Made by a program: the position numbers and the translations under genes. 64,000 bases of DNA from Bradyrhizobium icense (lineage in GTDB: Bacteria > Pseudomonadota > Alphaproteobacteria > Rhizobiales > Xanthobacteraceae): positions 434,001-498,000 of the forward strand of contig NZ_CP016428.1 in assembly GCF_001693385.1 (NCBI RefSeq), read 5' to 3'. A model generated the notes under the pieces. It was not told the origin of the DNA. It saw only the letters and a list, made by a program, of their open reading frames with translations, and did not search any database. The number at the start of each line of letters is the position of its first letter. Within the stretch, counting starts at the first letter, position 1. Of this stretch, positions 47,701 through 49,845 are shown one piece after another.

Positions 47701-47799
47701 CTCAGCTATCCACCTTTAGCGCGGCGATAAACGCTTCCTGCGGGATGTCGACCTTGCCGAACTGCCGCATCTTGCCTTCTTCTCCAGAAGCGCGCGTGA
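47701..47799 (-). pseudogene. Second, diverged copy of the lepA 3' end
   Basis: Minus-strand translation gives [20 protein letters not shown] and VDS plus stop, identical to the last 23 residues of LepA at 48034, while the DNA differs at four positions, all silent (TTC/TTT, GCG/GCC, TTG/CTA). Upstream of that part the copy continues with three short deletions up to about 47799. There is no start and no more of lepA. It is the main content of the 47528-48033 gap; the 170 bases to its left show nothing. Confidence 0.85.
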
Positions 47800-48033
47800 G
47801 GCTGGATTTCGCTGGTTCGGATGAATTTGGCAAGCACCCCACCGATCGCACGCGCTGCGATGATGGCGTCGTGCCGCTGATTTGCCCGACGTGTCAAATG
47901 GTTTCGCAAGATGCATCAGGCTGCACGCCGGCAGTCGTCGGCTACTTTGCATGGGGTTGTTTTCGATATTTTTGTTGTCCGGTCACGGAAGCAGACCGAA
48001 TCTGTTCATGCTCTGGTGGTCTGAGCATTCGCC
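47800..48033. other. Spacer between the two lepA 3' ends, with a repeat-like core
   Basis: No gene is seen. The core about 47862-47975 contains TGATTTGCCCGACGTGTCAA and GCTACTTTGCATGGGGTTGT. These strings are familiar from a recurrent intergenic sequence of Bradyrhizobium and Rhodopseudomonas genomes (memory, not checked). Its place between direct repeats of the lepA end suggests the scar of a lost or very small inserted element. Confidence 0.45.
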
Positions 48034-49845
48034 TCAGCTATCCACCTTCAACGCCGCGATGAACGCTTCCTGCGGGATGTCGACCTTGCCGAACTGCCGC
48101 ATCTTCTTCTTGCCTTCCTTCTGCTTCTCCAGAAGCTTGCGCTTGCGCGTGATGTCGCCGCCGTAGCATTTGGCGGTGACGTCCTTGCGCAGCGCGCGGA
48201 CGGTTTCGCGGGCGATCACCTTGCCGCCGATCGCGGCCTGGATCGGGATCTGGAACATGTGCGGCGGAATCAGTTCCTTCATCTTCTCGACCATGGCGCG
48301 GCCGCGGCCCTCGGCGCGGGTCCGGTGCACCAGCATCGACAGCGCATCGACCGGCTCGCCGTTGACGAGGATCTGCATCTTGACGAGGTCGGCGACCTTG
48401 TAGTCGGTCAGATGATAGTCGAACGAGGCGTAGCCCTTCGACACCGATTTCAGGCGATCGTAGAAATCGAACACGACTTCGTTGAGCGGCAAATCGTATT
48501 TCACCATCGCGCGGGAGCCGACGTAAGTGAGCTCCTTCTGCGAGCCGCGGCGGTCCTGGCACAGTTTTAGCACGCTGCCGAGATATTCGTCCGGCGTGAG
48601 GATCGTGGCCTCGATCCACGGCTCTTCGATGTCGGCGATCTTGACGACATCGGGCATGTCGACCGGGTTGTGGATCTCGATCTCCTGCCCATCGGTCAGG
48701 TGCATCTTGTAGATCACGCTCGGCGCCGTCGCGATCAGGTTGAGATCGAACTCGCGCGACAGCCGCTCCTGAATAATTTCCAGGTGCAACAGCCCGAGGA
48801 AGCCACAGCGGAAACCGAAGCCGAGCGCGGCCGAAGTTTCCATTTCGTACGAGAAGCTAGCATCGTTGAGCCGCAATTTGCCCATCGCCGCGCGCAGCGT
48901 CTCGAAATCGTTGGCGTCGACCGGGAACAAGCCGCAGAACACCACCGGGATCGCCGGCTTGAAGCCCGGCAGCATCTCGGTGATCGGCTTCTTGTCGTCG
49001 GTAATGGTGTCGCCCACGCGCGTATCGGCGACTTCCTTGATCGCCGCAGTGATGAAGCCGATCTCGCCGGGGCCGAGCTCGTCGACCTGCTCCATCTTCG
49101 GCGTGAAGAACCCGACGCGCTCGACATCATAGGCCGCGTTGGTGCCCATCATGCGGATGCGCTGGCCCTTTTTCATCGTGCCGTCGACGACGCGAATGAG
49201 CACGACGACGCCGAGATAGACGTCGTACCAGCTATCGACCAACAGCGCCTTCAGCGTTGCGCCGCGGTCGCCCTTGGGCGGTGGCAGGCGGGTGACGATA
49301 GCTTCCAGCACGTCGGGAACGCCGAGGCCGGTCTTGGCCGAGATCATCACGGCGTCCGAGGCATCGATCCCGATCACATCCTCGATCTGCTGCTTGACCT
49401 TGTCCGGTTCGGCCGCGGGCAGGTCGACCTTGTTGAGGACCGGCACGATCTCGTGATTGTTGTCGAGCGCCTGGTAGACGTTGGCGAGCGTCTGCGCCTC
49501 CACGCCCTGGCTGGCGTCGACCACCAAGAGCGATCCCTCGCAGGCTGCCAGCGACCGCGAGACCTCGTAGGCGAAGTCGACATGGCCGGGCGTGTCCATC
49601 AAATTGAAGATGTAATCCTTGCCGTCCTTGGCGCGGTAGTTCAGCCGCACCGTCTGCGCCTTGATGGTGATGCCGCGCTCGCGCTCGATGTCCATGGAAT
49701 CGAGCACCTGTTCCTTGCCCGCCATTTCGCGGTCCGACAGCCCGCCCGTCATCTGGATCAGGCGGTCGGCCAGCGTCGATTTACCATGGTCGATATGGGC
49801 GACGATGGAGAAGTTGCGGATGTTGGAAATAGGCGCGGTTGTCAT
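48034..49845 (-). CDS. lepA: Elongation factor 4 (LepA), ribosome back-translocase GTPase
   Basis: The 603-residue GTPase helps ribosomes in stress and initiation. G1 is [10 protein letters not shown] near residue 16, the switch region [13 protein letters not shown] near 55, G3 DTPGHVDF near 80, G4 NKVD near 134. Domain IV and the LepA-specific C-terminal domain end in VDS. The length is that of intact family members. ATG 49845 is chosen over frames that begin further up and lack similarity. Its 3' end is duplicated 0.3 kb downstream. Confidence 0.97.

Follow-up and report, generated by a model that had tools for sequence, protein, structure and literature searches.

The 3' end of lepA is a probable insertion hotspot in Bradyrhizobium, at which incoming DNA displaces the native gene tail

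The window, that is, the whole stretch of 64,000 bp analyzed here, corresponds to C1:434001-498000 of the Bradyrhizobium icense genome (G000), which consists of one 8,322,773-bp chromosome. It contains lepA, a second copy of the lepA 3' end and, further downstream, an MFS transporter gene that adjoins either lepA or the displaced lepA tail in 11 of the 19 genomes searched. The features of this region are as follows.

48034..49845, minus strand: resident lepA (elongation factor 4, 603 aa; Pfam LepA_C, EFG_C and GTP_EFTU), the 3' end of which is the probable target
47802..48032, no strand assigned: spacer composed of ~60 bp, the core repeat and ~55 bp, with no room for a gene of usual length
47857..47976, minus strand: one copy of an intergenic repeat that is dispersed in the genome, with its best-conserved stretch at 47942-47972
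47782..47801, minus strand: decayed 5' part of the lepA copy, with three small deletions seen by eye; the corresponding tail in G119 has a 124-nt form
47701..47781, minus strand: lepA 3'-end copy, read as a displaced tail, with the last 23 codons and the TGA stop retained
46292..47584, minus strand: MFS transporter (Pfam MFS_1), the syntenic gene past the insertion site

The lepA 3'-end duplicate reported in the initial annotation is real. Self-BLAST of the window paired 47701-47781 with 48033-48111 (92.6% identity over 81 columns, E 3e-26), and a repeat search of the window returned 73 nt at 95% with a start-to-start distance of 332. The last 23 LepA codons and the TGA stop lie at about 47702-47773 in the copy, and inspection by eye of the last 72 bp revealed four base differences in three codons, all of them silent (TTC/TTT, GCG/GCC and TTG/CTA). 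By eye, homology continues piecewise to about 47801, with three deletions of ~6-8 bp relative to the resident gene; G119, which has the same junction as G000, retains a 124-nt lepA tail. Because of these upstream deletions, the earlier description of the copy as carrying silent differences only holds for its last 72 bp alone, and the argument built on it against local decay is weak. The search for a donor, which had been proposed as a check, returned none among the 77 resident tails compared (14 of which failed a crude stop check yet were retained), as the copy differs from each of them at at least 6 of 72 positions in a frame that includes the decayed start.

The spacer had been suggested to be the scar of a deleted element, but its core turned out to be a common intergenic repeat and not such a scar. 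Centred on TTTGCATGGGGTTGTTTTCGATATTT, it occurs at 47942-47972 of the window and at 30 other places in G000 (31 in all at ≤3 mismatches, versus 0 for a reversed control pattern). A block similar to the G000 spacer is present 3' of lepA in relatives, and 45 of the 60 relatives compared have the core repeat itself, which begins 25-263 bp past the lepA stop whether or not there is a tail copy. Rfam gave no match at the core repeat of the window. The 28 copies that were read seemingly follow gene ends, in one orientation and in two sub-types as judged by eye, and at one locus (L006) the repeat lies about 110 bp past a tRNA-Met gene.

The last 110 bp of lepA were used as a query against 265 Bradyrhizobium genomes, with second matches taken at E 1e-6 and counted by hand. 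A match was obtained in 262 of the 265 genomes and two or more matches in 19. The second tail was on the same contig in 17 of these 19, always downstream of lepA, and on another contig in G024 and G248. G111, found outside this set, also has a second tail downstream. In at least 18 of the 265 genomes, a lower bound since three candidates were scored per genome, lepA is therefore followed on its own contig by a second tail at a distance of 0.1-19 kb. The phenomenon extends beyond the genus: in a family sample of 149 genomes, seven of them Bradyrhizobium, with five candidates scored per genome, 8 of the 142 others, from six genera, have a second lepA tail 0.5-2.4 kb downstream, a count that leaves out double matches on other contigs or at contig ends in G366, G374 and G377. 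The same search with other gene tails gave hand counts of 1 of 265 for map and 59 of 265 for radC; the counts of 19, 1 and 59 include second matches anywhere in the genome. Of 27 aligned lepA copies, 19 have their 3' limit at the stop codon, between -1 and +6 relative to the last base of lepA in the comparison. The 5' limits of the copies vary from -213 to -40 relative to the gene end, and a cluster of limits at -75 to -64, which includes decayed copies, is only suggestive.

Islands between two lepA ends, which the initial annotation had proposed to look for in relatives, were indeed found at the same place. About 210-250 bp separate the two tails in G000, G119 and G251. The insert of G043 encodes a class II prokaryotic Argonaute (pAgo) and its partner, an Aga Helical-REase nuclease of DpnII-MboI type, and that of G028 encodes a single 845-aa protein with a calcineurin-like (phosphoesterase-like) domain, which had no match in PADLOC. 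The inserts of G176 and G257 contain the same orphan three-gene set (120, 185 and 257 aa; L054 2748-4478 and L060), which is 81.6% identical over 1.8 kb between the two genomes, compared with 91.7% for their lepA bodies. Neither PADLOC nor Pfam returned a match for these three genes (G176 copy) or for the 572- and 419-aa proteins. In G164 a DDE transposase (IS) splits the core repeat, and other lepA inserts contain apparent ABC efflux genes and cyclases, named by eye. Moreover, minimal inserts leave about 60-92 bp between two lepA ends in G070, G108, G042, G049 and G004: in G070 and G108 the last 14 bp of lepA recur after about 92 bp, G042 and G049 show this 14-bp repeat with one or two mismatches (the insert being shorter in G042), and the repeat is 10 bp in G004.

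The direction of the event was examined by comparing the DNA after 13 lepA copies with the 6-kb stretch that lies 3' of lepA in each of 60 genomes. For 5 of the 13 copies, the following DNA matches directly from the lepA stop of an insert-free genome. The DNA after the copies of G119 and G120 matches the insert-free site of G031 (92%), that of G028 matches G103 (87% over 196 nt), which is also the nearest genome to G028 in a 250-bp stretch of lepA, that of G257 matches G069 and G077 (91% and 88%), and that of G003 matches G069 (82%). G119 and G120 may represent one event, as may G257 and G003. G031, G103, G069, G077 and G023 have neither a copy nor the core repeat after lepA. These matches indicate that in the five cases the copy and its flank are native and that the lepA-side tail and the spacer are the insert. 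No insert-free match from the stop was obtained for the other 8 of the 13 copies, in G000, G043, G047, G164, G176 (both copies), G200 and G251. The nativeness of the copy in G000 thus rests on the junction common with G119 and G251, from which we infer that the copy is the displaced native tail there too.

If so, the resident tail of G000 would be the newcomer. Over ~1,220 positions, the lepA body of G000 is nearest to those of G110, G176 and G057 (49, 51 and 60 differing sites, respectively) and differs at 83-128 sites from seven more distant relatives. Its last 50 nt are identical to those of G120, differ at one site from G054 and at 2-3 from the other eight, the genomes with the nearest bodies, G110, G176 and G057, differing there at three sites. 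From the sequence comparison, the import in G000 may be the resident tail rather than the copy, a weak indication because 2-3 differences are also usual among other relatives.

The idea that an integrating element brought in a 3' end agrees with the islands and displaced tails of relatives but not with the gene content beside lepA, where no integrase was found in the genomes examined. The window and 101 lepA-region loci gave no tyrosine recombinase match, either to HMMs (E 0.01) or with phmmer (E 1e-4), and 21 of the 23 query integrases were recovered by another one; a weaker phmmer match (4.5e-4) in L058 lies outside the insert. Likewise, a search of 60 genomes (five shortened by contig ends) up to 15 kb past lepA revealed no tyrosine recombinase, and the lepA inserts searched in 24 genomes gave no serine recombinase. 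G000 has 23 PF00589 matches, 0 of them inside the window; the IntI-type integrase of an integron cassette array is accordingly not seen in the window, nor is the integrase within the element that marks an ICE/IME or prophage seen at the lepA inserts. Possible carriers were sought as well. Plasmids were rejected as carriers of a Bradyrhizobium-like lepA tail (of 35 records, the 20 listed were 67-84% identical, none from Bradyrhizobium), as were phages (4 records, all <80%), and the exact lepA-tail pattern had 0 matches in viral contigs.

The initial annotation also pointed to a second housekeeping gene with tail copies in the window, which we take to be radC. The features of this sister site are as follows.

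27306..28055, minus strand: radC (NCBIfam RadC), sister hotspot
26752..26857, minus strand: radC tail copy bounding module A, from self-BLAST of the window
23056..23095, minus strand: radC tail fragment of 40 nt that begins at the att core and separates module A from module B
16876..16925, minus strand: radC tail fragment past module B, from self-BLAST of the window

Of the 16 radC tail copies displayed, 13 start at the same point (TGCACAACCA, or 1-2 bases off); the other three, together with copies not displayed, begin later and may be decayed. The left flanks of the 13 are mostly unrelated, and at least one pair (G000 and G176) has a common flank. Further, radC is broken at this shared start point, after VHNHP, in G191 (L204), G223 (L205) and G031 (L206), where an open frame for a tyrosine integrase of 430-457 aa starts 38-131 bp past the break and the nearest displaced radC tail is about 28, 35 or 61 kb away. 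Integrase-like pieces (PF00589) lie near the displaced tail, on the stretch that separates it from the broken radC: one below the cut-off in G223 (L068 5260-6186, 21.9 bits) and one in G031 (L070 2618-2995, 39.4 bits). The idea of integration at a gene end thus holds for radC, a textbook attachment site with both att core and integrase in three genomes. In the window, the array at 16876-27306 comprises a DUF308/patatin/GntP module and an oligopeptide ABC transporter module bounded by radC tails. G176 has counterparts of modules A (23056-26857) and B (16949-23005), at 95-96% identity and in the opposite order. The radC tail was found in 15 plasmid records, none from Bradyrhizobium, and the radC core pattern in one viral contig, an IMG/VR provirus contig (L164) in which the 3' part of radC stands beside other genes; no integrase match was obtained at E 1e-3 in its 12.5 kb.

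Taken together, the relatives show recurrent insertion at one place, tail displacement, varied cargo and insert-free sites. An imported tail, displacement of the native one and copies that end at the stop codon are what is expected from integration at a gene end. The lepA 3' end is therefore probably an insertion hotspot at which foreign DNA has inserted and the native tail has been displaced downstream; displacement is well supported in the relatives, and G000 presumably arose as they did. In the proposed scheme, incoming DNA carrying its own lepA tail would enter at the 3' end of lepA, the imported tail would give lepA a working end, and the recipient's tail would be shifted downstream. The G000 insert would now be, or would have shrunk to, a gene-free block of ~250 bp between the tails, resembling a microCIME. 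As to the joining step, we lean slightly towards a site-specific recombinase, which would have acted from elsewhere or have since been lost, by comparison with radC, where the integrase is present.

Additive homologous or homology-assisted recombination would yield the same displacement and differs at the joining step, which would involve no dedicated recombinase: a relative's lepA end with its downstream DNA would be joined through homology in lepA on one side and end-joining or circle closure on the other, giving tail repeats of any length. This is a tentative possibility, and it stays a serious rival because the searches returned no recombinase and the copies start anywhere from -213 to -40; the likeness of the inserted blocks to the lepA-downstream DNA of other species, including the core repeat, also speaks for it. 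However, it leaves unexplained why lepA and radC are hit and map, beside radC, is spared, and homologous recombination would usually need longer repeats than the 10-14 bp seen at the minimal inserts. It is unlikely that the lepA tail was duplicated locally, or by template switching, within a genome and that unrelated insertions followed. This would suit G176, in which the second copy is identical to its own tail at 212 of 213 positions, G054, which has an internal lepA fragment only, and G200 (L056), in which an inverted 27-nt lepA piece abuts the displaced tail; yet 5 of the 13 copies are followed by DNA that lies directly 3' of lepA in insert-free relatives, so that the lepA side and not the copy is new there. 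Finally, a mobile core repeat that duplicates its target, with the lepA tail as the target-site duplication, is very improbable and was rejected as the cause, for although the repeat is dispersed in G000 and the minimal inserts hold little beyond leader and core, a direct repeat is clear around only 1 of the 28 core copies read (of 31), the lepA one, a second copy (L181) having a possible flanking repeat (17-nt match, E 0.025).

The lepA 3'-end site recalls the CIMEs and microCIMEs of Streptococcus salivarius, which are cis-mobilizable elements at the 3' ends of housekeeping genes (PMC7563491). In the available text of that study, units with att at the gene 3' end, either gene-free (130-220 bp) or carrying cargo (1.2-13 kb), occur in tandem without recombinase genes, and the lepA site similarly has gene-free or cargo units at a gene 3' end without recombinase genes. 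In G000 the spacer of ~230-250 bp is gene-free and flanked by tails on both sides, with insert-free sites in relatives and with neither a tyrosine recombinase found in the 101 loci nor a serine recombinase in the inserts of 24 genomes; the tails are the putative recombination sites. In contrast to S. salivarius, where ICEs or IMEs stand in tandem at the same site (PMC7563491, as far as its text was available), none was found at lepA, and the 5' limit varies. A constant att core is seen at radC and not at lepA (-213 to -40), and the integrase-bearing insertions of G191, G223 and G031 lie at radC, with no ICE/IME parent found at lepA. The best reading of the lepA block in G000 is thus a gene-free remnant that works like a microCIME and is a candidate member of the CIMEs, as no integrase-bearing parent is known there and the repeat has no constant start.

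Consistent with our observations, radC is an ICE/IME integration site in Mesorhizobium (PMC8627217), so that both there and here it serves as an attachment gene in Rhizobiales; in three of the Bradyrhizobium genomes studied here, radC is interrupted at an invariant core and has the integrase next to it. The accessible text of PMC8627217 names the radC site, and neither arrays of integrase-free modules nor lepA were found in it. The defence islands at Pseudomonas tmRNA, as described in the available part of PMC12595487, resemble the lepA inserts in having putative defence cargo and direct repeats without genes for autonomous transfer and, unlike them, have a tyrosine integrase and a 14-bp repeat at tmRNA. 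In Pseudomonas, an ICE has also been described in a tRNA-Lys gene adjoining lepA (PMC6945700, consulted in part). In the portion of the literature available to our search, no description of the lepA 3' end as an integration target was found.

The lepA 3' end would thus be an unlisted insertion hotspot common to several genera, and a search of the DNA enclosed by two lepA tails could uncover Argonaute defence systems and orphan gene sets. In addition, with the occupied and insert-free lepA sites one could test whether small islands that lack an integrase borrow a recombinase to move or depend simply on homologous recombination. It is a doubtful but conceivable proposal that a single cassette system, trans-acting or host-driven, uses lepA and radC as its two ports in Bradyrhizobium and its kin. 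If true, integrase-free modules bounded by the host gene's tail would be captured, swapped and re-ordered, and cargo would be stored much as in an integron, with pieces of housekeeping genes as att sites. Elsewhere in the window, positions 4807-4905 match the Rhizobiales-2 small RNA (Rfam RF01723, 64 bits).
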